Shown: positions 3,887 through 34,042 of the stretch, piece after piece
Numbering within the stretch: position 1 is the stretch's first letter
Layout: each line of letters starts with the position of its first letter
Source: Candidatus Caldarchaeum subterraneum
GTDB lineage: Archaea > Thermoproteota > Nitrososphaeria_A > Caldarchaeales > Caldarchaeaceae
DNA: 34,563 nt
Assembly: GCA_937934305.1 (NCBI GenBank)
Contig: CALHAG010000021.1
Location: forward strand, 1-34,563
Direction: 5' to 3'
The notes under the pieces: model-generated
Databases searched by the model: none
The model's input: the letters and a program-made list of their open reading frames with translations, nothing else
Told to the model about the DNA's origin: nothing
Made by a program: the position numbers and the translations under genes

Positions 3887-4522
3887 ATGTTGAGCGAAAA
3901 GTCCGCGGATTGGTCGTGGGTTGTCTGCAGCAACTGCGGAACAACCACAATCAAGGGCCGCTTCTGTATGAAATGCGGCTCACCCCTTACACAGTATGCC
4001 AAGTCACAATATCAATACCGTTTTGGAGTAGATGTCTTAGGTGAGAAGAATGTAGGGAAAACATCTCTGATAAAGAAGCTGGTTGCTTCAAGCGACGTCA
4101 GCGCCATATCAGACTCTACAGCGTCAGGCAGTTGGATGATAGACAAAGCTGAAATAATCATAGACTTCAAGGAAGTAGACGGAGTGCATGCCGCTTTGGA
4201 TGATAAAATGGATGCGGCGCTGCTCGTCTTCGATTTAAGCAATCGCCGCACATTCGTCAAAAGCCTCCTCTTCCTTGAAAAGCTGAAAATGCTTCCAAAC
4301 CCTCCTCCCACATTCTTGATAGCGAACAAATCCGACGAAACAAGCAACAGAACAGTTTATCAAGAAGAGGCGGCGGACGTGGCCAAAGCTCATGGGGCAA
4401 CATACATAGAAGTATCTGCCTCAAACGGCTACAACGTTGATTTGCTCCGAGAAAAACTTATTAAGGGTCTTCTGGCTAGAAGGCTAGAAAAAATCAAAAG
4501 GTTGTTGAAGAATGGTCAGTGA
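3887..4522 (+). CDS. Small Ras-like GTPase with N-terminal zinc ribbon
   Basis: This 211-aa protein has two parts. Residues 14-30 form a zinc ribbon with two CxxC knuckles (C14/C17, C27/C30). From about residue 46 a small GTPase domain follows, with G1 GEKNVGKTS (52-60), G4 NKSD (147-150) and G5 SAS (177-179). The usual G3 DxxG/Q motif is not clear: the matching strand reads DFKEVDG (93-99), without the catalytic Gln/His seen in Ras-type switches. GTP hydrolysis may therefore depend on a partner. The ATG lies about 30 nt after a T/A-rich TATA-like element. It overlaps the next gene by 11 nt, so the two proteins probably work together. Archaeal Ras-like GTPases of this type have mostly unknown roles. 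Confidence 0.85.
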   Translation: MLSEKSADWSWVVCSNCGTTTIKGRFCMKCGSPLTQYAKSQYQYRFGVDVLGEKNVGKTSLIKKLVASSDVSAISDSTASGSWMIDKAEIIIDFKEVDGVHAALDDKMDAALLVFDLSNRRTFVKSLLFLEKLKMLPNPPPTFLIANKSDETSNRTVYQEEAADVAKAHGATYIEVSASNGYNVDLLREKLIKGLLARRLEKIKRLLKNGQ

Positions 4523-5534
4523 TACTCTGCTGAGAAGACCCGGCGTCGAGTCCTTCCTAAGATACTTGGAGAACAGTGGAAAGGAGTCGATCGACCCCTT
4601 GTTCGAAAAAACCGCCTACCGTTACCCGGTTGCGGAAGAATTTTTTGAAGAAGACGCCGAAACGGTCCTAGAAAACTTAGCTGAGCTGGGCATTTTCGAG
4701 AAAAGGTTGATGGACTCTGCGATGATGTGCCCTGACTGCGGAACACTGGCTCACGTGGTTAAACCTGTTTGCCCAACATGCAGCTCAGCACGTTTGATTA
4801 AAGGCAACGTCATCGAACACATGCTCTGCGGATACGTTGATTTTGAGCAGGAGTTTTACAAACAGGGCTTCAAATGTATCAAGTGTGGAAAAGAGCTTAA
4901 GACGCTTGGAGTTGATTACCGTAGAGCAGGTGTTTTCTACAAATGTATGTCATGTGGCAGGGTTACCGCGATTCCTGTGAAGAGGTTTATCTGCGGCCAC
5001 TGTGGAAGAGCTAGCACCGAGGAGGAGCTGCAGCTCAAACCGGTCTTCAGCTATGTTGTTGTTAGAGAAAAGTTCGCCGTCCTCAAGGGAATGTTCCTCG
5101 ACCTAACCCCCCTCATCAGCTTGATAGAGTCGAAGGGATTCGTCGTAGAATCACCTGCAAAGATAGCCGGAATTTCGGGCGTCGTACACGAGTTTACGCT
5201 GTTCGCAAGCAGGCCCAGTGCACCGGCATCCGCAAGCCTAGCCATAGACATTGTCAGAGATGCGGACGACAACAAGTTGTTCGAATTCTTCACAAAAACC
5301 TTTGACGTCAAAGCTGGGGCCTCCCTACTGCTATGTCTGGGCCATGTTGATGAAAAAGCTAAGAAGCTTGCTGACACGTTTAACATACTGATGCTCGAGT
5401 TCACATCAGCCGACGAACTCGTTGAAAAGTCGAAGACAGAGATAGAGAAAATCCTTGATAAGCTGAGCAAGAGAGAGTTGTATGAGGAGGCTGATTACCT
5501 CGAAGACCTATTGAAAAAGTTAGACAAAGTTTAA
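4512..5534 (+). CDS. Zinc-rich protein with TackOD1-like domain and C-terminal REase-like region
   Basis: This is a 340-aa protein. Residues 1-70 are helical and acidic. Residues 73-164 hold five CxxC pairs (73/76, 87/90, 122/125, 145/148, 161/164) and an H103/C106 pair. The pattern around HMLCGYVDFEQEF and CGKELKTLGVDY resembles TackOD1, a zinc output domain described in thaumarchaeal response regulators. There is no receiver domain here. Residues 180-300 have a strand-helix pattern with GISGVVHEFTLFA and LAIDIV, similar to restriction-endonuclease-like folds of archaeal regulators, although I see no certain nuclease triad. The C terminus is a charged coiled coil (300-340). It overlaps the small GTPase gene by 11 nt. 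A role as GTPase partner or effector is inference. Confidence 0.75.
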   Translation: MVSDTLLRRPGVESFLRYLENSGKESIDPLFEKTAYRYPVAEEFFEEDAETVLENLAELGIFEKRLMDSAMMCPDCGTLAHVVKPVCPTCSSARLIKGNVIEHMLCGYVDFEQEFYKQGFKCIKCGKELKTLGVDYRRAGVFYKCMSCGRVTAIPVKRFICGHCGRASTEEELQLKPVFSYVVVREKFAVLKGMFLDLTPLISLIESKGFVVESPAKIAGISGVVHEFTLFASRPSAPASASLAIDIVRDADDNKLFEFFTKTFDVKAGASLLLCLGHVDEKAKKLADTFNILMLEFTSADELVEKSKTEIEKILDKLSKRELYEEADYLEDLLKKLDKV

Positions 5535-9553: not shown

Positions 9554-9889
9554 ATGGGCAAGCGGAAAATTGTCTCCGAACCCGATGAACTGGACCAGTT
9601 GGTGGAGCCTGGCCCCGGCGATGTCTACGGCGTGGTTAGCAAGATGTATGGCTATGATAGGCTTTTGGTGGATTGTTCTGACGGTAAGCAGAGGGTTTGC
9701 CGAATACGTGGACAGCTAAAACGCCGTATCTGGATAAAGGAGGGGGACCTCGTCCTTGTTTCGCCGTGGGACTTTCAGAGAGACAGCAGAGGCGATGTAT
9801 GGTGGCGGTTCACACATAATCAAGCTCTCGAGCTAGCCAAAAAAGGCGTCATTCCAGATTTCTTGAAAGCAAAGCTCGGAGCGGCTTAG
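9554..9889 (+). CDS. eif1A: Translation initiation factor aIF-1A
   Basis: This is a 111-aa S1/IF1-type OB-fold protein, the archaeal counterpart of eIF1A, which binds the small ribosomal subunit A site during initiation. A basic, flexible N terminus (MGKRK) is followed by the OB fold, with CRIRGQLKRRIWIKEGDLVLVSPWDF as its diagnostic centre (about 49-74). The C-terminal helix (HNQALELAKKG) is also present. The length is normal. The ATG is preceded by a G-rich GGTGGCGGG and a TATA-like TAAATACC about 36 nt upstream. It overlaps the convergent GTPase gene by 4 nt. Confidence 0.95.
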   Translation: MGKRKIVSEPDELDQLVEPGPGDVYGVVSKMYGYDRLLVDCSDGKQRVCRIRGQLKRRIWIKEGDLVLVSPWDFQRDSRGDVWWRFTHNQALELAKKGVIPDFLKAKLGAA

Positions 9890-13944: not shown

Positions 13945-14298
13945 ATGAGACCCGCCCCTCTGCTTCTAGTTTTGGTTCTTTCTCTTTGGCAGCTTGCTCA
14001 GGGCTTGGCGATGCGGTTTGAGGTTGTTGAGCCTGACATGGTTCGTCCTATTCATATTGGGGTGGGCGCATTGACGGCACTCATACTGCTTGGACTTCTC
14101 AGGTCTGCGAGAAAGCAGGGTGAACGCATCGGCTCGGACCTCGCTTTCGTATTTCTTTTGATAATTTTCCAGGGTTTGGCTGGGCTTTTTATCCTCGCCG
14201 AAGTCTCGTTAGCGGCAATAATCCATCTTGTGCTATCTTTCTTTGTCGTTGGGTCGGTGGCCGCCGCCTTGATTTTAGCCGCGTCCGAAACCGGCTAA
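13945..14298 (+). CDS. Small four-TM membrane protein, possibly half-size CtaA-like
   Basis: This 117-aa protein has four membrane helices and two membrane histidines, H37 (RPIHIGVGAL) and H94 (AAIIHLVLSFF). The second half, IIFQGLAGLFIL followed by AIIHLVLSF, resembles the Q-G-x-x-x ... LH pattern of haem A synthase (CtaA/COX15). Half-length CtaA proteins are known in some archaea, but this one is shorter still. Haem A synthesis is therefore a guess. It could equally be another small haem- or quinone-linked membrane protein. The ATG is leaderless by the TATA spacing. The stop codon overlaps that of the convergent VKOR gene. Confidence 0.55.
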   Translation: MRPAPLLLVLVLSLWQLAQGLAMRFEVVEPDMVRPIHIGVGALTALILLGLLRSARKQGERIGSDLAFVFLLIIFQGLAGLFILAEVSLAAIIHLVLSFFVVGSVAAALILAASETG

Positions 14299-16810: not shown

Positions 16811-18436
16811 ATGCCGAAATACATCTTCGTAACAGGCGGCGTCGTCAGCAGCGTCGGCAAAGGAACCGTGGCCGCATCTATTGGAAAAATTTTATCCGTC
16901 CGTGGAGTGAAAACGGGGTTTCTAAAGATAGACCCCTACGTTAACGTCGACGCCGGAACACTCAACCCCTTCTCACACGGCGAAGTCTTTGTAACAGACG
17001 ACGGTGCAGAAACAGACCTGGACCTCGGCTGGTATGAGCGCTTTCTCGACATAACAACGTCGAGGAAAAACAACATAACAACTGGACAAATCTATGCAGA
17101 GGTCATCGCGAGAGAGAGGCGCGGCGACTACCTTGGCCAATGTGTCCAGATAGTGCCACATGTCACTGACGAGATTAAGAGAAGAATCAGAGAGGCTTCA
17201 GATGGGGTGGATGTTTTGATTGTTGAGGTCGGTGGAACAGTCGGTGACATCGAGGGGCAGCCGTTTCTCGAGGCGATTAGGCAGATGCGTCTCGAGGAGG
17301 GTGTGGAAAACACCTTGTTTGTCCACGTCGCGCTCGTGCTCACACTCAAGGCGACGGGCGAGTTCAAAACCAAGGCCCTTCAGCACAGTGTCAACACATT
17401 GAGAGCGCTCGGCATACAGCCCGACATAATAGTGGCGAGAAGCGACAAGCCCATAGACCAAGAAGCACGACGCAAGATTGCCTTGTTCGGCACCATTTCA
17501 GAGAAAGCGGTTTTCTCCTCTCATGACGTTGACTGTGTATACAAGGTTCCCGTGGTTTTGGAGAAGCAGGGGATGGGTGAGTATTTGGTTACACGACTTG
17601 GTCTCGGAGAGACGAATCCTGACTGGAGGGAGTGGAATCATGTGCTGGAACTGTATGACCACGCAGTTTTCCCCGTCAAGATAGCTGTTTGCGGCAAATA
17701 CACAAAGCTGGCTGATTCATATGTGAGTGTGAAGGAGGCTCTGCAGCACGCAGGTGTGAACATCGGCGCCCGTGTAGAGATTGACTGGGTCAACACTGAG
17801 GAGTTTGAAAACGGTTCAAGAAGTTTGGAGACGCTTCGCGGCTATGACGGCGTTCTGGTGCCCGGAGGCTTCGGCAGAAGAGGCACCGAGGGCATGGTTG
17901 AATGCATCAGGTTCTGCAGAATAAACGATATCCCGTTCCTCGGAATATGCTTCGGCTTGCAGCTCTCTATCGTAGAGTTTGCACGAAACGTCTGCGGCCT
18001 CGCTGGAGCGAATTCAACGGAGCTGAACCCGGAGACACCGCATCCCGTCATCGACCTTATGCCTGAGCAAAGGAGGATAAGTGGCTTCGGCGGAACCATG
18101 AGGCTCGGCGCTTTATCTGTGCGACTTGTCAAAGGCACTTTGGCGCATAGACTTTATGGAGCTGATGAGATACGTCAGAGACATCGGCACAGGTATGAGG
18201 TTAATCACTTATACTGGGAAACCCTGCAGAAGAATGGGCTGGTTTTCTCAGGTTTTTCACCTGAAGGAGACCGTATTGAGGTCATCGAGTATCCTGTCAA
18301 CAGGTTCTTCCTCGCAACACAGTTTCACCCCGAATATCTATCTCGGCCAAATAAGCCGGACCCGGCGTATCTAGGATTTGTTAAAGCTGCGATGGAGAGG
18401 AGAAAGACTCTCAAAGCAGCCGAGGCCGTTGCCTAA
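16811..18436 (+). CDS. pyrG: CTP synthase
   Basis: This 541-aa enzyme aminates UTP to CTP using glutamine and ATP. The N-terminal synthetase domain starts KYIFVTGGVVSSVGKGT, with its P-loop, and includes KIDPYVNVDAGT. The C-terminal glutamine amidotransferase domain has PGGFGRRG, the nucleophile Cys in FLGICFGLQ, and the His/Glu pair in QFHPEYLSRP. The length is normal. I choose ATG 16811 (MPKYIFV), the family's usual start, which lies about 25 nt after AATTTATC (16782-16789). An ATG at 16796 would add five residues. It shares a 4-nt stop overlap with the convergent ABC permease gene. Confidence 0.97.
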   Translation: MPKYIFVTGGVVSSVGKGTVAASIGKILSVRGVKTGFLKIDPYVNVDAGTLNPFSHGEVFVTDDGAETDLDLGWYERFLDITTSRKNNITTGQIYAEVIARERRGDYLGQCVQIVPHVTDEIKRRIREASDGVDVLIVEVGGTVGDIEGQPFLEAIRQMRLEEGVENTLFVHVALVLTLKATGEFKTKALQHSVNTLRALGIQPDIIVARSDKPIDQEARRKIALFGTISEKAVFSSHDVDCVYKVPVVLEKQGMGEYLVTRLGLGETNPDWREWNHVLELYDHAVFPVKIAVCGKYTKLADSYVSVKEALQHAGVNIGARVEIDWVNTEEFENGSRSLETLRGYDGVLVPGGFGRRGTEGMVECIRFCRINDIPFLGICFGLQLSIVEFARNVCGLAGANSTELNPETPHPVIDLMPEQRRISGFGGTMRLGALSVRLVKGTLAHRLYGADEIRQRHRHRYEVNHLYWETLQKNGLVFSGFSPEGDRIEVIEYPVNRFFLATQFHPEYLSRPNKPDPAYLGFVKAAMERRKTLKAAEAVA

Positions 18437-19698: not shown

Positions 19699-20411
19699 GG
19701 TGCTTCACCCATTTTTTTGACGAAAAGCTCCTCAAGGTTCTGAACATTATGGGACGCCGTCAGTTCGCGTGGTTTTCCCTCGGCTATGATGCTGCCTCTG
19801 TGTATGAGCGCTATGCGGTCGCAGAGATAGTCTACCTCGAGCATGTTGTGGCTCGAGACTATGAAGGTTGTTCCCTGCTCCGCATACTGGCTGATGATTT
19901 TTCTCACGTAGACGCTGTGTTCAACATCGAGGCCGGCGGTTGGTTCGTCGAGGATGGCGAGACGCGGCTTAACCATCAAGCAGCCTGCGAGCAAAATTCT
20001 CCGCCTCATGCCTTTGCTATATTCGCCCATCCTCCGGTCAACATCCTCTCCCAGCCCAGATATAGTGACACCTTGTTCAAGAGCCGAGGAGCCGAGCCCA
20101 TAAACCCTGCTAACCATTTTGAGAAAACCTCTGCCGGTGAGGTTTTTGTAAACACCCGCCTCCTCGGGAAGATATGCAATCATTCGCCTGACATCGGAGG
20201 CCTCTCTTACAACGTCTTTTCCAAACACTTTCGCTGTTCCGCGGCTGGGGCGGAGCAGCGTCGCCAGTATCCTAAACATGGTTGTCTTTCCCGCGCCGTT
20301 GGGCCCTATCAACCCGTAGACACCGCCCTCTTCCACTGCCAAGCTAACGCCCCGTAGTACGGGATTGTCGCTGAAAAACCGCCAAAGCCCCTCGGCCACC
20401 ACCGCATACAT
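19695..20411 (-). CDS. ABC exporter ATP-binding protein (NatA-like)
   Basis: This is a 238-aa ATPase subunit. It has Walker A GPNGAGKTT (36-44), a Q-loop replaced by YLPEEAGVY (Glu where Gln is usual), an ABC signature reading YSKGM (usually LSGGQ) and Walker B LAILDEPTAGLD, then an H-loop in SSHNMLE. YSKGM and PEE are common in the drug/sodium-exporter (DRA/NatA) class, so they are no sign of decay. The ATG is about 25 nt from the AT-rich CAATTTATT on the minus strand (20432-20440) and so is probably leaderless. It pairs with the permease downstream. Confidence 0.92.
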   Translation of the reverse strand: MYAVVAEGLWRFFSDNPVLRGVSLAVEEGGVYGLIGPNGAGKTTMFRILATLLRPSRGTAKVFGKDVVREASDVRRMIAYLPEEAGVYKNLTGRGFLKMVSRVYGLGSSALEQGVTISGLGEDVDRRMGEYSKGMRRRILLAGCLMVKPRLAILDEPTAGLDVEHSVYVRKIISQYAEQGTTFIVSSHNMLEVDYLCDRIALIHRGSIIAEGKPRELTASHNVQNLEELFVKKMGEAP

Positions 20412-20431
20412 AGCCCATTCTCCGCATACAT

Positions 20432-20440
20432 CAATAAATT
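20432..20440. promoter_or_regulatory. Shared AT box between the ABC exporter and EamA genes
   Basis: CAATAAATT is the only AT-rich element in the 44-bp divergent gap. It is about 25 nt from the ATPase ATG on the minus strand and 20-29 nt from the TTG starts (20456 or 20465) of the EamA gene. Confidence 0.4.
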
Positions 20441-20455
20441 GTTGAACATAGATGT

Positions 20456-21307
20456 TTGGAAAGGTTGTGGGAGCAGCTATCCGCTGTCTATGGTGTGGCG
20501 TCGGCGGTTAGCTGGGGTGCTGGAGACTTTTACGGAGGATACGCGTCGAAAAAAGCAAGCGTGCTCATGGTGGTGGCTGTTTCACAGGCCATCGGCCTCG
20601 CTCTTCTGCTTATTTTCGGCATCGCTTCAGGTGAGAAGCCGCCCACAACCAGCGACATTTACTGGTCAGCCTCGGCAGGCTTTTTCAGCGGCCTCGGAAT
20701 CACTCTATACTATGCCGCTCTTTCACGCGGGTCGATGGGCCTCGCCGCCCCCGTCACAGGCGTTTTGACGGCTGCTGTGCCAGCTTTGACGGGCTCTTTT
20801 CTAGAAGGAGCGCCTACATCTCTTCAGGCTATCGGGTTTCTGCTGGCTTTCGTCAGCATATTTCTCGTCACTGGCAACAAGTTTGACAGGCTTGACGTGA
20901 AGCGGCAGCTCGCTCCAGCGGCGGCCGCGGGCCTCGGCTTCGGCCTCTTCCTCGTAACTATCGGACAAGTCACACCGGGCCACTACTACTATCCACTAGC
21001 CCTCTCGAGGTTCATCACCGTCTCCATGGTGCTTGCCGCGTCTCTGGCAAAGGGCGGAGCCTCTCTATCCAACAGCCGTCTCGCAACAGTGGCCGCAGGC
21101 GTCTTCGACACAGGAGGAAGTTTCTTCTACCTGCTTGCCCGTCAACAGGGAAGACTCGACGAGGCAGGAGTCCTCTCCTCCCTCTACCCCGTCTCAACAG
21201 TTCTCCTCGCAAAAACAGTCCTCGGCGAAAAACTCGGCAAACAAAGAACAACAGGAATACTATGCGCCGCAGCAGCCACCGCGCTAATACAAACAGCAAA
21301 CATTTAA
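20456..21307 (+). CDS. EamA/DMT-family transporter
   Basis: This 283-aa carrier has ten predicted membrane helices in two similar halves (about 5-140 and 150-283), as in drug/metabolite transporters. The second-half signature VLSSLYPVSTVLLAKTVLGEKL is typical of EamA proteins. The ATG at 20452 is out of frame, so the start must be a TTG, at 20456 or 20465. Its last codons (GILC...LIQTANI and stop) are repeated in decayed form at 26073-26116, upstream of tRNA-Asn. The substrate is unknown. Confidence 0.88.
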   Translation: MERLWEQLSAVYGVASAVSWGAGDFYGGYASKKASVLMVVAVSQAIGLALLLIFGIASGEKPPTTSDIYWSASAGFFSGLGITLYYAALSRGSMGLAAPVTGVLTAAVPALTGSFLEGAPTSLQAIGFLLAFVSIFLVTGNKFDRLDVKRQLAPAAAAGLGFGLFLVTIGQVTPGHYYYPLALSRFITVSMVLAASLAKGGASLSNSRLATVAAGVFDTGGSFFYLLARQQGRLDEAGVLSSLYPVSTVLLAKTVLGEKLGKQRTTGILCAAAATALIQTANI

Positions 21308-21308
21308 A
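21283..21308 (+). repeat. Left copy of a 26-bp direct repeat (3' end of the EamA gene)
   Basis: This 26-bp stretch matches 26091-26116 at 24 positions, in the same orientation. It covers the last seven codons (LIQTANI), the stop and two more bases. The two copies flank the giant surface-protein gene. Confidence 0.8.
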
Positions 21309-21345
21309 CGGCAGGCAGAGTGGATGTTGTTTCGTGTGTTAGTTG

Positions 21346-24300
21346 TTATGGTGGTGGAGGCGGCGGTGGGGGAGGACGTCTAAATCTTCGTATCAATACA
21401 AGGGTGACTGCTGCAGCTGCGAGGATGATTACAGTAGCTATCAGAGCGGGTTGAGTTGATGTAGAGGATTGGGTCTCTATATACTGTGTGGTGGTTTTTG
21501 TTGTTGGAGGTGTTGTGGTCATGACTGTGGTGGCTTGTGTGGTGGCGGTGGTTGTTGGCGTTATTGTTGTTGTCTTTGTTTGGACAGGCTCCCAAAGCGC
21601 CCTGAGAGTTACTGGTTTTTCCGCCGTGAATGTTAGCGGGTTCTGGTCAGAGGTTATGTCGCCTGTCCAGCCTTTGAACACATATCCCTGCGGAGCGGTT
21701 GCTTTCAGAGTCACTTTAGCCCCCAGTTTGTAGAAGCCTGAGCCATCTACTTGGCCTATGTTTGTTTCCGCTTTTACCTGCACATATACTGTGTAAAGTT
21801 CTTCAAGATTTAGAGTGGCTTTGTCCTTGAGTTTAACTGTGACTATAGGCTGGTTCGTTTCAAGTTTCCATCCCTTATTCTCGAGCGGCGACTGTATTGT
21901 GAGTATGTATGTTCCTGCAGGTAGCCTAAGGGTGGTTGTTGTGTTTTCGATTTTAAGCGATATTTGTTTTTTGCTGTCTGGAAGAGATATCTTAAGGGTC
22001 ATCCCCTTGACGGCGTCAACTAGTTCCTTTTTGCCTGTAACTATTAGGTTGGCGTGAACGGCTAGTGGCATCATCCTATAGGCTGGTGCAAACCCTTCTT
22101 TTCCAGCTATGATGTGGACGTAGTTTATACCTGCTTTGGATGGTGTGAGGGTGTAGGAAAATGTCCCATCCTGTTCTGTTGTAATGTTAGCTATCCGCCT
22201 TATCTGTCCATCTGGTTCTATGATGGAAATTGAGATGCTTGCTCCGGGTACCCCATTTGAGCCAAACTGGTCAAAGACCTTCCCCTTTATCTTGGTTGGT
22301 TTATCTACGGCTGTCTTGTCGACTGTGAAGTTTAGCCGGAGACCCGGTAGAGGCTGTCCTATGCTCAGTTGATATCGGTTGTCTATGATGACAGGGATTT
22401 TCACAAGCTCGCCGTAGCCGATATTTAGATGAACCGGGATTGTTCGGATGCTTTTTGTATTGCCCCAGTTATAGGTTATGTGTAGGTATGCATCTACGCC
22501 TTTCTCGTCTGTTCCGTATACATTGAGGAAGTATACTCCCGGTGTCATCGCGAATGTTTCGAGGACTTTCGGAAACGAGCCGTAGCCACTATATCTTAGA
22601 GCATTTTCAGAGTATGAGGTGCCATGGTCGGGATGATACCCGGCTATGTTACCAAGGGAATCTTCCAAAGCTAGCTCCAAAAATGGTGGGTCGACGAATA
22701 TTACTCCGGAAGCAATCCACTGCCCTGCAGCTGTCGAAATGACCTCTGAAGGCGCTCCGATTTTTTGGGCGTAATTATTGACTAGGTCGCTGACTACTTT
22801 GCCATTGTAATCCTGAGCTAATTTAACCGCCTGCTCAACTGCATTATCTATATCTGTGCCTGGGTTGACGTTAAATTCAATCTTGGTTGTTGGTATTTTG
22901 GTCAGCTCAGAGTCATAGTTATCAATCTTGTATTTGCCGATAGGGGCTCCTGAAACGGTCGTCACTTCCACCTTGCTCGGAGTTAGCGGTGGAAGACCTT
23001 GCCCTGAGTAAGTCGAGCTTGTTTGGTAGTAGACGCGCATTAAATATTCCTCCCCATCTATTTCTTTGTTAAACTCAACATAGCCCAGTGAATATGCTTG
23101 AAGGTATTTTTGCTGGTTATCGAGAATCTTCTCCTTTACGTCCTTAGGCAAATCCATCCCTGCGAGTAGATTCACAACTTGGCTGTATGTCATTAACCCA
23201 CCGTCAGGGTTATAGTATACAGGCAGCTTTCCTTCCACGAGTGCGAAAATGGTTTGGTATTCTAGGAGATCCTTCTGCAGGTCTTTCAAAGATTGTTCAA
23301 GCTTTTTGTTAGCTTCGGCAAATGATTCGGCGAATTTATCAGCGTCTCCTTTTTTGTAGGCTTCTATTGCCTGGCCGAGCAAGGCGCTTACTTCATTAGA
23401 GGCTTCGGAATTATAGTTGTTTAGCAATTTTTGCGAAGGGTCTCCAGATGTTTCATCAACATTTGTAGAATAAACGGTGTTTTCCGATAATGAGTCCGCG
23501 GAGGCTTCGGCGACTGCTCTGTTTGTCTCCGATATCGTGCCTGTACCACCTCCTGCGACAACGTCGCTTGAGCCCTGTATGATGGTGCCCCAGTCCCATT
23601 CCCATGGGCTTTCATTAGGTATCATATATAGGTAAGCATATTGGTCGGATGCGACAACTGGTTGGATGGGCTCTACTGAAGAGCTGTTAGTGGCAAACAC
23701 ACGTAAAACATCAAATGAGGCCGGCGAACTGGGTATATAAGCGTAAAACTCTGAGCCATACGCCGCTAATTCTACGAGGCGATTGTAAACGTTTTGTGGC
23801 ACAACCCCCTGTAGCGCTGTAACGTTGTCTTTAGTAGCGAAGAGCACTCTGCCTCCTTTGGTCAAGGCGTAATAGAATGAGTGACTTGTGGAGAAGGGTG
23901 ATGATTGCTGCGACCTATACACAGCAACTCCCTCCATCAACGAATCATACACAAATCTCTTGAACATTATTTCCCGCGTCAGCTTTACCTCACCCATAAA
24001 CGGGTCAACAATCATAAAAGCTGCTATCATGTCTTGAGCGTGGATTCCGCCGTTAGAGAGGTATACTTTTCTACCATCATAGCCAATTATGTAGGCGCTT
24101 GACTGAGTAATGGTAAACGGGTACATGGCAAAGACATATGAATGGTTGGCTAATTCCTCCAGCAAATGCCACGACCCAATCCTGTATAGCCGGCCTTGGA
24201 CATATGCGAATCTGCCTACTACTTCGTCGATATCCATACCTTTGAGAAGCTCTGGAGAGGCTAGAGTTAGTGCAAAAATAGATGACGCGTATATCCCCAT

Positions 24301-25884
24301 CTCCCCATTGAATCTCGTCTTCACAAAACTGGGAACATAAGACATGTAACCATTTATCCAAAAATTGCGTCCGGTCCATCTATAAGTGGAGTTATTAGGC
24401 CGCTGAACCTGATGAGTAATGTATAGGGGAGAATAATATCCCGGATAAGCAGGGTCTCCAAGCGAGAGAACGACACCGTTCAGTAGAAACTGAATTCTAA
24501 CCCTTGCCCTCTTTATGTCTATCCCAGGCGTCAGAAGACCATTTGGCTGTGAGGCGATGTATGATGCAGCATATCTATCAGCTGGTATGAATCTAGCTGT
24601 TATTCTATACCCCGCTGCTATAGGCATGGCAAGCGTAAAACTATGATTACCGTTTACGAAATCGTATCCCCTTGAATCGGTCCAAGCCGGATACTCGAAC
24701 TTCAGCCTAGACACATACTCGATAGGCGGCGTGGGGCCTATGTACAAAACAACTCTTTCCCCTACGGGTTCTTGCAGCCCACTGGAAGGTATTATATAGA
24801 CCCCCGGCTGGACATCAGTAGGGTCGAACTTATTTAGAGGTTCCATGTATTCTTTGAAGGACTCCTCAAATTCATCTTGTACAGAAATAACAGGTGGCAA
24901 GGTTACCCCCTCGATTGGTGAACTAGTTTTCCGGATCGTTTTCTTGAACGAGGGGTCCATATCGACCCAAGAATTGTTTACAAAAGCCCTTACCCACGAG
25001 TGTCTAAGCCAGATAACATCGTTAGACGGGTCATACTGGTCAAGGAGATAGGAATAGGTCAGGATCTTTAACAGTGACTCTTTGTTCCAAACACCCAAAG
25101 TGTCCATGACGACTTTTGATTTGACACCCACTAACCCGTAGACATAACGCGCCGGAGTACCTGTGGCTCTCAGCAAAGCCACCAATAAGCTCGACTGGTC
25201 AAAGGAGTTTCCATACAAATCATAATACGTTCTGATCGGCCCTCTCATGACTCCCCAATAAGCATCAAATAAAACATTGTTTCTAACGAATTCGTACAAG
25301 GCCACACTAGTGTTTCCTAACTCTTTTGCAAGTGCATAAAACATGAAAGGAACTGGTGTATACTCATCGGAGGCTAGATCATGAACAGACTTGGGAGCAT
25401 CCATTACATCGGCGAGCTGGCTTGTTGATACAACCATTTTGAGTGTCTTTGGCGTCTTTTGCTGATTCTCCCATACTCTCACCACTATCGTGATTTCTCC
25501 GTCAAAAGTAGGTATGAAGACCATTCGCGGGTTTATTCTGCCTACTACATCGCTTCTAGAGACAACTTGTTCAAATGTTAATGACACATTTCCCTGAAGC
25601 GTCTGATTACCCTTAATCAATATCACTTGGGCATAGTATTGAAGACCTGTTTCAACATCAGTAGAGTTCACGGATATTAGGTACTTTGTCCTTTTTACAT
25701 GTGCATCCGGAATGGAGAGAGTTACAGCTGAAGCGAGAACTCCATCAATCCTCAAACCTCCAACAAACTGTAGAACATATTCTTGGGTTGAGGAGATTAT
25801 GCTGCCGCCGGAACCCCAGACAGAACCAGGAAATGTGGAAATAAATAAGAGAACCGCTAGACCAGCCACAAGTACCTTTAACAT
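21346..25884 (-). CDS. Giant cell-surface protein with transglutaminase-like domain
   Basis: This is a secreted, membrane-anchored protein of 1512 aa. Numbering is from ATG 25884, chosen because the signal peptide then begins at once and an AT-rich TATA-like run (25911-25920) lies about 30 nt upstream. An ATG at 25911 would add nine residues. Order: signal peptide (about 1-25); a beta-rich domain; a transglutaminase-like domain (about 196-313) with Ser227 in place of the catalytic Cys but with H295 and D311 kept; a long unassigned region; a coiled coil (about 825-880); a carboxypeptidase-regulatory/Big-like beta domain (about 1180-1265); an InlB-type repeat (KGWTGDITSDQ, about 1365-1430); a Thr-rich stalk (about 1432-1473); one TM helix; and a tail RRFRR plus nine prolines. 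Its role is probably adhesion or cell-envelope contact. Confidence 0.85.
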   Translation of the reverse strand: MLKVLVAGLAVLLFISTFPGSVWGSGGSIISSTQEYVLQFVGGLRIDGVLASAVTLSIPDAHVKRTKYLISVNSTDVETGLQYYAQVILIKGNQTLQGNVSLTFEQVVSRSDVVGRINPRMVFIPTFDGEITIVVRVWENQQKTPKTLKMVVSTSQLADVMDAPKSVHDLASDEYTPVPFMFYALAKELGNTSVALYEFVRNNVLFDAYWGVMRGPIRTYYDLYGNSFDQSSLLVALLRATGTPARYVYGLVGVKSKVVMDTLGVWNKESLLKILTYSYLLDQYDPSNDVIWLRHSWVRAFVNNSWVDMDPSFKKTIRKTSSPIEGVTLPPVISVQDEFEESFKEYMEPLNKFDPTDVQPGVYIIPSSGLQEPVGERVVLYIGPTPPIEYVSRLKFEYPAWTDSRGYDFVNGNHSFTLAMPIAAGYRITARFIPADRYAASYIASQPNGLLTPGIDIKRARVRIQFLLNGVVLSLGDPAYPGYYSPLYITHQVQRPNNSTYRWTGRNFWINGYMSYVPSFVKTRFNGEMGIYASSIFALTLASPELLKGMDIDEVVGRFAYVQGRLYRIGSWHLLEELANHSYVFAMYPFTITQSSAYIIGYDGRKVYLSNGGIHAQDMIAAFMIVDPFMGEVKLTREIMFKRFVYDSLMEGVAVYRSQQSSPFSTSHSFYYALTKGGRVLFATKDNVTALQGVVPQNVYNRLVELAAYGSEFYAYIPSSPASFDVLRVFATNSSSVEPIQPVVASDQYAYLYMIPNESPWEWDWGTIIQGSSDVVAGGGTGTISETNRAVAEASADSLSENTVYSTNVDETSGDPSQKLLNNYNSEASNEVSALLGQAIEAYKKGDADKFAESFAEANKKLEQSLKDLQKDLLEYQTIFALVEGKLPVYYNPDGGLMTYSQVVNLLAGMDLPKDVKEKILDNQQKYLQAYSLGYVEFNKEIDGEEYLMRVYYQTSSTYSGQGLPPLTPSKVEVTTVSGAPIGKYKIDNYDSELTKIPTTKIEFNVNPGTDIDNAVEQAVKLAQDYNGKVVSDLVNNYAQKIGAPSEVISTAAGQWIASGVIFVDPPFLELALEDSLGNIAGYHPDHGTSYSENALRYSGYGSFPKVLETFAMTPGVYFLNVYGTDEKGVDAYLHITYNWGNTKSIRTIPVHLNIGYGELVKIPVIIDNRYQLSIGQPLPGLRLNFTVDKTAVDKPTKIKGKVFDQFGSNGVPGASISISIIEPDGQIRRIANITTEQDGTFSYTLTPSKAGINYVHIIAGKEGFAPAYRMMPLAVHANLIVTGKKELVDAVKGMTLKISLPDSKKQISLKIENTTTTLRLPAGTYILTIQSPLENKGWKLETNQPIVTVKLKDKATLNLEELYTVYVQVKAETNIGQVDGSGFYKLGAKVTLKATAPQGYVFKGWTGDITSDQNPLTFTAEKPVTLRALWEPVQTKTTTITPTTTATTQATTVMTTTPPTTKTTTQYIETQSSTSTQPALIATVIILAAAAVTLVLIRRFRRPPPPPPPPP

Positions 25885-25939
25885 AATATAATCGCTATCA
25901 AAGAGATGCATAAAAAAATTTCGTAGCTACCTTGAGGAC

Positions 25940-26116
25940 ACGGCTCCAGAAGATGCCCTCAAAGTCGTTCGTGTTCCAGGAACATAATACCCAAAGGCTC
26001 AACCGGCGTGTTATCACGACACCTGCCCTGCCCCAACACCCTATTAGCAACCCTATTCACACAATGAAAGTAAGGAATACTTTGCCCTATGCTGATACAA
26101 ACAGCAAACATATAAA
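25940..26116 (+). pseudogene. Decayed 3' fragment of an EamA/DMT transporter gene
   Basis: The last part (26074-26115) reads GILCPMLIQTANI and stop in one frame. This matches the end of the intact EamA protein at 20456-21307 (GILC, then LIQTANI), with four codons lost. The DNA is 24/26 identical at 26091-26116 and 12/13 at 26073-26085. Just upstream in this frame there are stop codons. In another frame at about 25990-26030 the string QRLNRRVITTPALP loosely resembles QGRLDEAGVLSSLYP, which would mean a frameshifted remnant. Only the last 45 bp are certain; the 5' limit is a guess. The 230-bp stretch holds nothing else I can support except the tRNA promoter. Confidence 0.6.
26091..26116 (+). 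repeat. Right copy of the 26-bp direct repeat, overlapping the tRNA promoter
   Basis: It matches 21283-21308 at 24 of 26 positions. A T-to-A change turns CATTTAAA into CATATAAA, which is a good TATA box (26109-26118) about 30 nt before the tRNA-Asn gene. The remnant may thus have been kept as, or recruited to be, the tRNA promoter. Confidence 0.75.
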
Positions 26117-26142
26117 AAACAACCATATCACGAAAAACCGTG

Positions 26143-26216
26143 GCCGGGGTAGCTCAGCCTGGTAGAGCGGCGGGCTGTTAACCCGTCGGTCAGCGGTTCA
26201 AATCCGCTCCCCGGCG
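26143..26216 (+). tRNA. tRNA-Asn (anticodon GTT)
   Basis: A complete cloverleaf can be folded by hand. The acceptor stem is GCCGGGG (26143-26149) with CCCCGGC (26209-26215), and the discriminator base is G26216. The D arm contains AGCTCAGCCTGGTAGAGC. The anticodon stem 26170-26174/26182-26186 has a 7-nt loop with GTT at 26177-26179. The T arm is AGCGG-TTCAAAT-CCGCT. There is no intron and CCA is not encoded. The convergent HsdR_N-like gene ends 3 nt beyond it. Confidence 0.98.
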
Positions 26217-26219
26217 CAA

Positions 26220-27116
26220 CTAAGCCAAAAACACAACATCAGGCTTTACACCGCAAATCTCAAGCAATCTACGTGTGTGACGTAAAATGTCCCTAGCACT
26301 AAAATGCGTCTCGACATAGACGGAACCTACCTTTTTTGAAAACCTAAATTTTTTACCATCCTCATGCTCTGGGTGCGTGTTGACGAGGTAACTGTCACCC
26401 CTGCTGGTTTTGATTGGTAGATTGGTTAGTTTGTTTGTTGCATTAAGCCATTCAACGGTGGAGGTTAAGATGTCTTTCCAAGACCTCAGTGGATGGGATT
26501 TTCCATCGGGAAAAATGATTTTTTTGTATCGCAGTGTGTCTCCCGGTTTTTGTGATATTCGTGTGAGAGGTGTACCATGTGGTGGCTGTGTGGTCTTAGG
26601 GGGTTCGATTTGTGGGGGTGCAGCCTCTGTGATGCCCGCGTATCGCATTATGGTGAATGCTCTTCTTATGACTTCGCCTGCATTCATCGACTGAATATCC
26701 CATTCAACTATCTTTTTGTCCTGTAGAGGTTTCTGAATGCTTGTGTCATAGACCTCCCATCGGGAGCCGTCTGTTGCTATGAAGTATCTCACCCCCTCGG
26801 AGACACAGTAGGAAATTTGTTGCAGCAAATCCTCCTGCTTACCCAGAGCCTTCGCACCTACGAAAGCCAGCCTCTGACCGCCGTGGAGTAGAGCGTAGTC
26901 AGGCCGCCCCGCCTGTGTCGAGACCTCAGGCCTAACAAGCTCGGGGTTTTCAGTGTCCCATCCAAGGGCCCTCAGCAAGGGGTCTATCAACACATACCGT
27001 GTCAAAGCCTCGCTTGACTGAAGCTCCTTCTGATAATCTTGAATACGTTTCTTAAGCCGGTCAACAAGGGAAACAAGCTCCTGAAGCATCGTAAAAGGAG
27101 CTGTGTATCCACCCAT
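26220..27116 (-). CDS. Orphan HsdR_N-like protein (type I restriction R-subunit nuclease fold)
   Basis: This is a 298-aa protein. The N-terminal coiled coil (about 10-35) is followed by a domain with PLLRALGWD and ELVRPEV. RPDYAL (71-76) and FVGAKAL (85-91) then match the PD-(D/E)xK core of HsdR_N proteins. The usual E-x-K reads G87-A-K89, so the catalytic acid is missing. No helicase domain follows, and no methylase or specificity subunit is near. Residues 190-298 form a second conserved-looking domain that I cannot name (FPDGKSHPLRSWKDIL, then HFSARDILRHTRRLL). An ATG at 27089 is an alternative start, about 28 nt after CATATATGG. A nucleic-acid-binding role without cleavage is inference. 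Confidence 0.75.
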   Translation of the reverse strand: MGGYTAPFTMLQELVSLVDRLKKRIQDYQKELQSSEALTRYVLIDPLLRALGWDTENPELVRPEVSTQAGRPDYALLHGGQRLAFVGAKALGKQEDLLQQISYCVSEGVRYFIATDGSRWEVYDTSIQKPLQDKKIVEWDIQSMNAGEVIRRAFTIMRYAGITEAAPPQIEPPKTTQPPHGTPLTRISQKPGDTLRYKKIIFPDGKSHPLRSWKDILTSTVEWLNATNKLTNLPIKTSRGDSYLVNTHPEHEDGKKFRFSKKVGSVYVETHFSARDILRHTRRLLEICGVKPDVVFLA

Positions 27117-27619: not shown

Positions 27620-28786
27620 TTGTTGAAGCTGGTTAAAGACCCTGTCCACGGCTACATCACCATCTCCGATGAAGAAAGAAAGCTCGTCGACTCCGCGGCG
27701 GTCCAGAGGCTGCGAAGAATAAGCCAGTTGCCTCTTGTCTATCTTGTTTATCCCGGGGCCCGTCACAGCCGCTTCGACCACTCCCTCGGCTGCATGCATC
27801 TTGCTGGAGAGTTCGCCGACCACCTGAACCTCGACACCCATGAGAGAAACCTTCTCAGAGCATCGGCTCTTCTACACGACATCGGCCATACACCGTTTTC
27901 ACACCTCTTCGAGCAGCTTCTCATGGAGAAGGGGCTGAGCCACGAGGACATGAGCATCAAAATAGTGCAAGAAGATGATGAGATAGCCTCTGCGCTGGAG
28001 GCCATGGGACTCGATGTGAAAGAGGTTGTGGATGTTCTGCGAGGCAGGTCCCGGCTAAGCGGCCTCGTCTCAGGCCCCCTTGACGTGGACCGCTTGGATT
28101 TTCTGCTCAGAGACGCCTACTTCACCGGCGCAACCTATGGCGTAGTAGATGTCCGACGAATCATAAGACTCACCCGTCTTCTAGAGGATGGGCCAGCCGT
28201 AGACAGCAGAGGAATCGGAGTGGTCGAGGAGCTCGCCATAGCCCGCTATCACTCCTTCATCAACATCTACTTCCACCACGCGGCGAGAGCGGCTCAACAT
28301 CTTCTCCTCAGAGCGGCCAAAATGCTCGAAGACGAGCTTGACTACAGCACAATGACAGTTCAAGAATATCTCCAACACGACGACTACACAACATGGTGCC
28401 TGATAAGGAGCAGGGAGAAAAGCAGACCATACATCAAAATGCTTGAAAAAAGAATTTTGCCGAAGAGAGTTTTTGAGCAGAAATTTCTCGGCGAGAATGG
28501 TCCGCGGATAAATTACTCAGATATTTCTCTGCTTGAGAGGCTGATTGCCGAGGAGGCTGGAACCGAGCCTATGAAAATCTATGTGGACTACAGCTACGCT
28601 CCTCCGCTAACCAAATACGGGCCCGGAGAAGTTAGAATCCATCCACCCCCCGATACAGATTCATGGATTATTCAGCAACTCTCTAAGCCCTTGAAGCTGG
28701 TGAGGGTTTACGTTGAGCGTGAAGCTGCAGAACTTGACAGAGTTCGAAAGGCCGCGGAAAAAATTATCGACTCAGAGACGGTATAA
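27620..28786 (+). CDS. HD-superfamily phosphohydrolase (SAMHD1/dGTPase-like, COG1078 type)
   Basis: This is a 388-aa metal-dependent phosphohydrolase. The HD residues are H49 and the RFDH motif (51-54), H86-D87 in LLHDIGHTPFSH, and the distal aspartates in GPLDVDRLDFLLRDA (155-160). The start KLVKDPVHGYI is the hallmark of COG1078 proteins. Relatives hydrolyse dNTPs, and thymidylate kinase next door supports a dNTP-pool role (inference). The start is a TTG (27620, or the adjacent 27623), about 25 nt after CTTTTATC (27593-27600). The 3' end overlaps tmk by 23 nt on the opposite strand. Confidence 0.92.
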   Translation: MLKLVKDPVHGYITISDEERKLVDSAAVQRLRRISQLPLVYLVYPGARHSRFDHSLGCMHLAGEFADHLNLDTHERNLLRASALLHDIGHTPFSHLFEQLLMEKGLSHEDMSIKIVQEDDEIASALEAMGLDVKEVVDVLRGRSRLSGLVSGPLDVDRLDFLLRDAYFTGATYGVVDVRRIIRLTRLLEDGPAVDSRGIGVVEELAIARYHSFINIYFHHAARAAQHLLLRAAKMLEDELDYSTMTVQEYLQHDDYTTWCLIRSREKSRPYIKMLEKRILPKRVFEQKFLGENGPRINYSDISLLERLIAEEAGTEPMKIYVDYSYAPPLTKYGPGEVRIHPPPDTDSWIIQQLSKPLKLVRVYVEREAAELDRVRKAAEKIIDSETV

Positions 28787-33211: not shown

Positions 33212-34042
33212 TTGCATACAACTGTTGCCTTCCAAGGTGAGAAAGGGGCCTACAGCGAGGAGGCGATATTCCATTTCTTCGGCGAAAATGTCCAGACCAT
33301 GCCCTGCAAAAGTATTCGGGATGTTTTCAAGAATTGTGAGGCCCGTGTTGTCGACTATGGTGTGGTTCCTGTGGAGAACAGCATAGAGGGAAGTGTCTTC
33401 GAGACCTATGATATGTTTCTCAGCTCAAGCGTAAAAGCTGTTGGCGAAATCATTCTCAGAATACGTCACTGCCTAATTGCTTTACCTGATGTTTCTCTCA
33501 GCGAAGTCGAGACAGTCTACTCCCATCCGCAGGCTCTTGCACAGTGCCGTGGATATCTCCAGTCACTCGGTGTGTCGGTTGAGGTTACCTATGACACCGC
33601 TGGCAGTGTGAAGATGATTAAGGAGCGCGGGTTAAGGAATGCTGCAGCGGTTGCGAGCGAGAGAGCCGCTGAAATCTATGGCATGAAGATTCTTGCAAAA
33701 GGAATAGAAGACTATGGACACAACTATACAAGGTTTCTTGTCATATCGGTGAAGGAGGCGCAGTATACCCCAAACAGTAAAACATCCATCATCTTCTCGA
33801 CAGCCCACAAGCCCGGGGCGCTCTACAACGCACTTGGAGCATTCGCGAGAAACGGTATAAACCTCACCAAGATAGAGTCGCGGCCAACCCGGCAAAGGCC
33901 ATGGGAATACTACTTCTTCGTCGATTTTGAGGGGCATCAAGAAGATGAACACGTGAAGAAAGCTTTGGCTGAGCTGGCCTCCTACACATCTTTCATAAAA
34001 GTCCTCGGCTCTTATCCACGTGCCTCAACCGACTTATCCTAA
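33212..34042 (+). CDS. pheA: Prephenate dehydratase with ACT domain
   Basis: This 276-aa enzyme converts prephenate to phenylpyruvate in phenylalanine synthesis. Catalytic-domain marks are FQGEKGAYSEEA (8-19), VVPVENSIEGSV (51-62) and the TRF motif (173-175). The ACT domain (about 190-265), with GALYNALGAF (202-211) and ESRP (222-225), binds phenylalanine for feedback control. There is no chorismate mutase domain. It starts with TTG 33212, directly before the family's TVAFQG and about 27 nt from the TATA box. It shares a 4-nt stop overlap with the convergent dehydrogenase gene. Confidence 0.96.
   Translation: MHTTVAFQGEKGAYSEEAIFHFFGENVQTMPCKSIRDVFKNCEARVVDYGVVPVENSIEGSVFETYDMFLSSSVKAVGEIILRIRHCLIALPDVSLSEVETVYSHPQALAQCRGYLQSLGVSVEVTYDTAGSVKMIKERGLRNAAAVASERAAEIYGMKILAKGIEDYGHNYTRFLVISVKEAQYTPNSKTSIIFSTAHKPGALYNALGAFARNGINLTKIESRPTRQRPWEYYFFVDFEGHQEDEHVKKALAELASYTSFIKVLGSYPRASTDLS

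Follow-up and report, generated by a model that had tools for sequence, protein, structure and literature searches.

How did a gene for a giant surface protein come to stand between an EamA-family transporter gene and the tRNA-Asn gene of a Caldarchaeum-group hot-spring archaeon, with a short direct repeat on either side of it? We analyzed a 34,563-nucleotide stretch of DNA (the window, to which coordinates refer unless stated otherwise) from the source genome, a 1.56-Mb, 97%-complete assembly of 30 contigs. The original prediction, made from the letters of the sequence, was that the gene had been inserted next to the tRNA, the EamA tail being duplicated in the process, or that a tandem EamA paralogue had decayed after the insertion. 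The features of the locus are these:

20456..21307, plus strand: intact EamA-family transporter gene, 283 aa, whose 3' end would be the insertion target (open reading frame; Pfam EamA, E 1.9e-25)
21283..21308, plus strand: left copy of the presumed 26-bp target duplication, coding the EamA tail LIQTANI and stop (repeat search, blastn)
21309..26090, no strand assigned: presumed inserted segment, 4782 bp with one gene, absent from the empty site in the relatives G002, G003 and G005 (flank alignment, composition)
21346..25911, minus strand: giant surface-protein gene, 1521 aa (open reading frame, Pfam)
26058..26085, plus strand: probable extension of the right-hand duplication, decayed EamA tail codons, 75% identical (alignment)
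26091..26116, plus strand: right copy of the presumed 26-bp duplication, its 3' end being the probable TATA box of tRNA-Asn (repeat search, blastn)
26143..26217, plus strand: tRNA-Asn (GTT), intact, with no part duplicated (tRNA search)

We looked for EamA in 40 relatives and, in eight of these, also for the downstream HSDR_N gene. Among those with complete genomes the closest is G002, a member of the same genus with a chromosome of 1,680,938 bp. It is apparently the published Caldiarchaeum subterraneum composite genome, because the paper (PMC3293823) and the tRNA search give tRNA-Thr(CGU) one and the same coordinate, 503442-503515. Both genomes share the gene order pyrG-ABC-ABC-EamA-tRNA-Asn-HSDR_N-NifU-HD-tmk-ilvD, the nine flanking protein genes keep their order and strand with 74-98% protein identity, and the giant gene is the only gene of the syntenic stretch that G002 lacks. 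The EamA protein of G002 is 88% identical to that of the source genome and has the same end; its match stops at 126,999 and the HSDR_N match starts at 127,164, with tRNA-Asn alone between them. By blastn, window 20403-21308 aligned to positions 4099-5004 of the G002 stretch L035, and window 26091-26218 to positions 4979-5106 (96.9% identity). The two flanks overlap on this empty site by exactly 26 bp (L035 4979-5004), which defines the insert as 21309-26090. G002 thus offers a site that is empty and holds a single copy of the repeat, and the giant gene is also absent from two more relatives. G003, a second congener whose EamA is 64% identical, has the same short EamA/tRNA-Asn junction, and in G005, of another genus in the same family, EamA precedes tRNA-Asn by about 215 bp with no gene between them. 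EamA and tRNA-Asn are therefore neighbors in relatives without the giant gene, as the original prediction had expected of an insertion. The filled site is known from one genome only, and with the site empty in G002, G003 and G005, the simplest reading is an insertion in the lineage of the source genome.

The repeat that brackets the giant gene is as originally described, 26 bp with 24/26 positions identical. A search of the 1.56-Mb genome with its 21-base core, allowing up to 3 mismatches, found two copies, both at this locus; the reversed control pattern of this core gave zero matches genome-wide in the same search. Where EamA ends in GILC-AAAATA-LIQTANI-stop, the right copy has GILC-PM-LIQTANI-stop and is four codons shorter, again in agreement with the earlier reading. 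Upstream of it, the 28 nt at 26058-26085 match the EamA tail at about 75% and are followed by a net 12-nt deletion; the match has p of about 0.001 in a directed test and about 0.13 in an open one. The duplicated target comprises these 26 bp and probably reached as much as about 71 bp. Each copy differs from the single copy of G002 at 1/26 positions (25/26 identical). The right copy had been said to abut tRNA-Asn, which proved inexact: it ends 26 bp before the tRNA and contains the probable TATA box. The EamA/giant gene pair was correctly singled out as the only convergent protein-gene pair in the window with a gap (38 bp), as the other five of five overlap, four by exactly 4 bp, their stop codons shared as CTAA or TTAG (9886-9889, 14295-14298, 18433-18436 and 34039-34042), and one by 23 bp (28764-28786).

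The sequence of the empty site reads ..CTAATACAAACAGCAAACATATAAAAAAC.., in which ATA-TAA is the last EamA codon plus the stop codon. The same ATA-TAA presumably doubles as the TATA box expected for tRNA-Asn. Across 29 tRNA genes of the source genome, AT content peaks around -36 to -26, and the TATA box of the right copy, at -35 to -27 from tRNA-Asn, falls within this interval. In the left copy ATA-TAA is changed to ATT-TAA, a change that would keep the EamA protein and weaken the TATA box. Judged from position and sequence, the left copy would serve EamA and the right copy the tRNA-Asn promoter, and the position of the EamA stop codon in the empty site, within the tRNA-Asn core promoter, would account for the survival of both copies. 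The description of the right-hand sequence as a decayed EamA 3' end fits what lies upstream of the 26-mer and fails for the 26-mer, which is probably a promoter that was retained and more than the decayed end of a gene. Past the right copy, the tRNA leader is nearly identical to that of G002 and unlike that of G003. Together with the single difference of each copy from G002, this indicates that both flanks are native host DNA and not donor DNA.

Comparison of the sequences shows the following course of events. In the ancestor shared with G002, the last EamA codons and stop overlapped the presumed tRNA-Asn core promoter. Once the two lineages had separated, a 4.8-kb segment with one large surface-protein gene entered at the EamA/tRNA-Asn junction and the target was duplicated, so that the left copy completes the EamA frame and the right copy keeps the tRNA-Asn promoter. 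To this reading, meaning the insertion, the 26-bp duplication and the split of functions, with the enzyme left out of the figure, we assign a probability of roughly 0.85; of the insertion event alone we are more confident still. The G002 empty site and the 26-bp overlap of the flanks bear out the first proposal, in which the gene was inserted next to the tRNA and the EamA tail was duplicated.

The insert was most deviant in composition, with a dinucleotide delta* of 94 against 11-48 for other equal stretches of the window, and the giant gene has the lowest GC3 of 22 genes (0.455; the others 0.49-0.65), although a Ser/Thr-rich surface protein may partly account for such values. The gene family is patchy, occurring in 3/44 genomes of the order, and long homologues, about 36-40% identical, were found in two others only, G039 and G018. 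Those two belong to other families and have unrelated neighbor genes, and the contigs of both end inside the homologue. The patchy distribution and the atypical composition support horizontal transfer, by which we infer that the insert arrived, the donor being perhaps another Caldarchaeales lineage. The insert matched none of the G002 stretches compared. A search of viral contigs with the giant protein gave no match and hence no donor sequence, and a search of the right-hand intergenic region (25880-26110) in eight genomes gave the known repeat and chance hits only. A small frame at 25892-25987, resembling a protein tail (RSYLEDTAPEDALKVVRVPGT), had no convincing relative and no credible Pfam family.

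The giant protein consists of an N-terminal hydrophobic segment, a transglutaminase-like domain, an InlB-type repeat (PF18998, residues 1378-1443), a Ser/Thr-rich linker, a C-terminal hydrophobic segment and a poly-Pro tail. The transglutaminase-like domain (PF01841, residues 203-320) scored 44 bits against a curated cut-off of 23, which places it in the family. At the position that we assign to the Cys of the GNC motif usual in this family, the giant protein has Ser236, and its relatives carry Asp or Ser there; both His304 and Asp319 are retained. The Cys-His-Asp triad of an active enzyme is thus incomplete, and because the catalytic Cys is replaced, the protein, probably displayed on the cell surface, is more likely to act through binding than through catalysis. 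The large transglutaminase-like surface proteins of G039, G018 and the distant G226, all Caldarchaeales, have the same N-terminal architecture with an invariant GN..DQ.SLL, His304 and Asp319, and that of G039 shares the InlB-type repeat near its C-terminus. They differ, however, in sequence (about 34-40% identity) and in genomic neighbors. PDB and PHROGs searches gave no useful match, and a predicted structure of residues 1-760 was set aside (mean pLDDT 37).

Could the giant gene instead be ancestral, flanked from the start by short repeats and lost from G002, G003 and G005 by recombination between them? Deletion between 26-bp direct repeats would yield exactly the arrangement of G002. Losses would then have to have occurred independently in three lineages, and the foreign composition of the insert and the lack of a long homologue in the other family members searched also speak against ancestry. 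Moreover, with both copies at 25/26 to G002, the duplication appears to date from about the time of the split from G002 or later. We regard this account as very improbable, and give marginally less credit to a tandem EamA paralogue upstream of tRNA-Asn that decayed after the giant gene arrived, the second possibility raised at the outset. In favor of a paralogue, the similarity of the right copy extends 28 nt past the 26-mer, with a net deletion of whole codons. Yet 25912-26057 holds no EamA similarity, the best match of the open search was that 28-nt stretch itself, and none of the relatives examined has a second EamA gene at the site.

By what mechanism the segment entered is a separate matter. 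Our best guess, which we hold at about even odds, is that the insert is a cargo-only remnant of an integrated element belonging to a type that uses protein-gene 3' ends or tRNA loci as attachment sites. The repeat and its location are what point to such an element, since the direct repeats fit attL/attR at a tRNA locus or a protein-gene 3' end and lie in the published length range (PMC6563490). The insert holds no integrase, whole or split: it has a single gene, and the small frames at its right end match no integrase. The PF00589 profile had no match in the whole 97%-complete genome, though this model may miss some archaeal integrases. Terminal inverted repeats were likewise sought in the insert and not found, and there is no second gene in it to code a transposase or casposase, so that it does not qualify as a DNA transposon, an insertion sequence or a casposon. 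The lone cargo gene and the missing recombinase and inverted repeats speak for another course, in which a break at the EamA/tRNA junction captured foreign DNA during illegitimate repair and fill-in of long staggered ends duplicated 26-71 bp; the events to survive would be those that left EamA as well as the tRNA promoter working. Such selection for both functions would allow what is seen, a duplication that reaches into EamA but spares the tRNA leader. On the other side, site-specific integration, too, typically leaves a direct repeat this long beside a tRNA locus (PMC6563490, PMC3293823). Illegitimate repair, which competes with the integrated-element step and not with the insertion itself, is a real possibility that we hold somewhat short of probable. 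Doubtful, in our view, is a cargo-only integration unit, in which single surface-protein genes would move among Caldarchaeales without a recombinase of their own, perhaps mobilized in trans by other elements, into overlaps of gene ends and tRNA promoters. No other single-gene insertion with duplication was established when the tRNA flanks of the source genome and G002 were compared; most upstream flanks are conserved and a few are replaced.

A survey of thaumarchaeal integrated elements that includes C. subterraneum counted 39 of 68 in tRNA genes and 14 at the 3' ends of protein-coding genes; the direct repeats went down to 8 bp with a median of 17, most being under 26 bp and a few longer than 25 bp, and for one element of C. 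subterraneum the site is the 5' part of a tRNA-Ser gene (PMC6563490). The elements at 3'-distal regions of protein genes resemble the present case in having a repeat of att length at the 3' end of the host gene, in preserving the gene end and in having been checked against an empty relative. What sets the present case apart is that its insert is one gene without an integrase, and that a tRNA promoter also lies at the site. Another C. subterraneum insertion, 1.87 kb long and located at tRNA-Thr, is bordered by a repeated 5' portion of that tRNA (PMC3293823); like ours, it is from this archaeal group, lies at a tRNA locus and has its direct repeat 5' of the tRNA. Its repeat, however, is the first 27 nt of the tRNA, whereas tRNA-Asn here is untouched, and it holds a putative recombinase, found in several regions of that genome, of which our insert has no counterpart. 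The present site fits the published pattern of integration, but its insert lacks the defining integrase. The kind of event is already known, and the neat detail is that a stop codon and a tRNA promoter overlap at the target: the case illustrates insertion into such an overlap of coding sequence and promoter, a short duplication separating the two functions. It also provides a fully resolved pair of filled and empty sites in a little-studied archaeal order and adds a further surface-protein gene of patchy distribution in this group.

Several minor observations were made along the way. At L092/L123, L094/L125 and L107/L138 (source genome versus G002), the orthologous tRNA is conserved and its upstream flank is replaced; L125 is the tRNA-Thr(CGU) that was placed beside a putative mobile element (PMC3293823). 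The HSDR_N protein (26220-27116) is small, comprising only the N-terminal part of the type I restriction enzyme R domain, and no other restriction genes lie beside it within the window. It is conserved within the genus (G001, G002 and G003) and adjoins tRNA-Asn in G002 and G003. In G004, EamA (C13:9339-10136; L009, L015, L017) was matched as three pieces in different frames, which looks like a frameshifted gene or assembly errors. Beside the giant-gene homologue of G039 (L078:5942-6379) lies an apparent, very short glutamyl-tRNA reductase of 145 aa, its N-terminal part only, which heads a run of heme synthesis genes.
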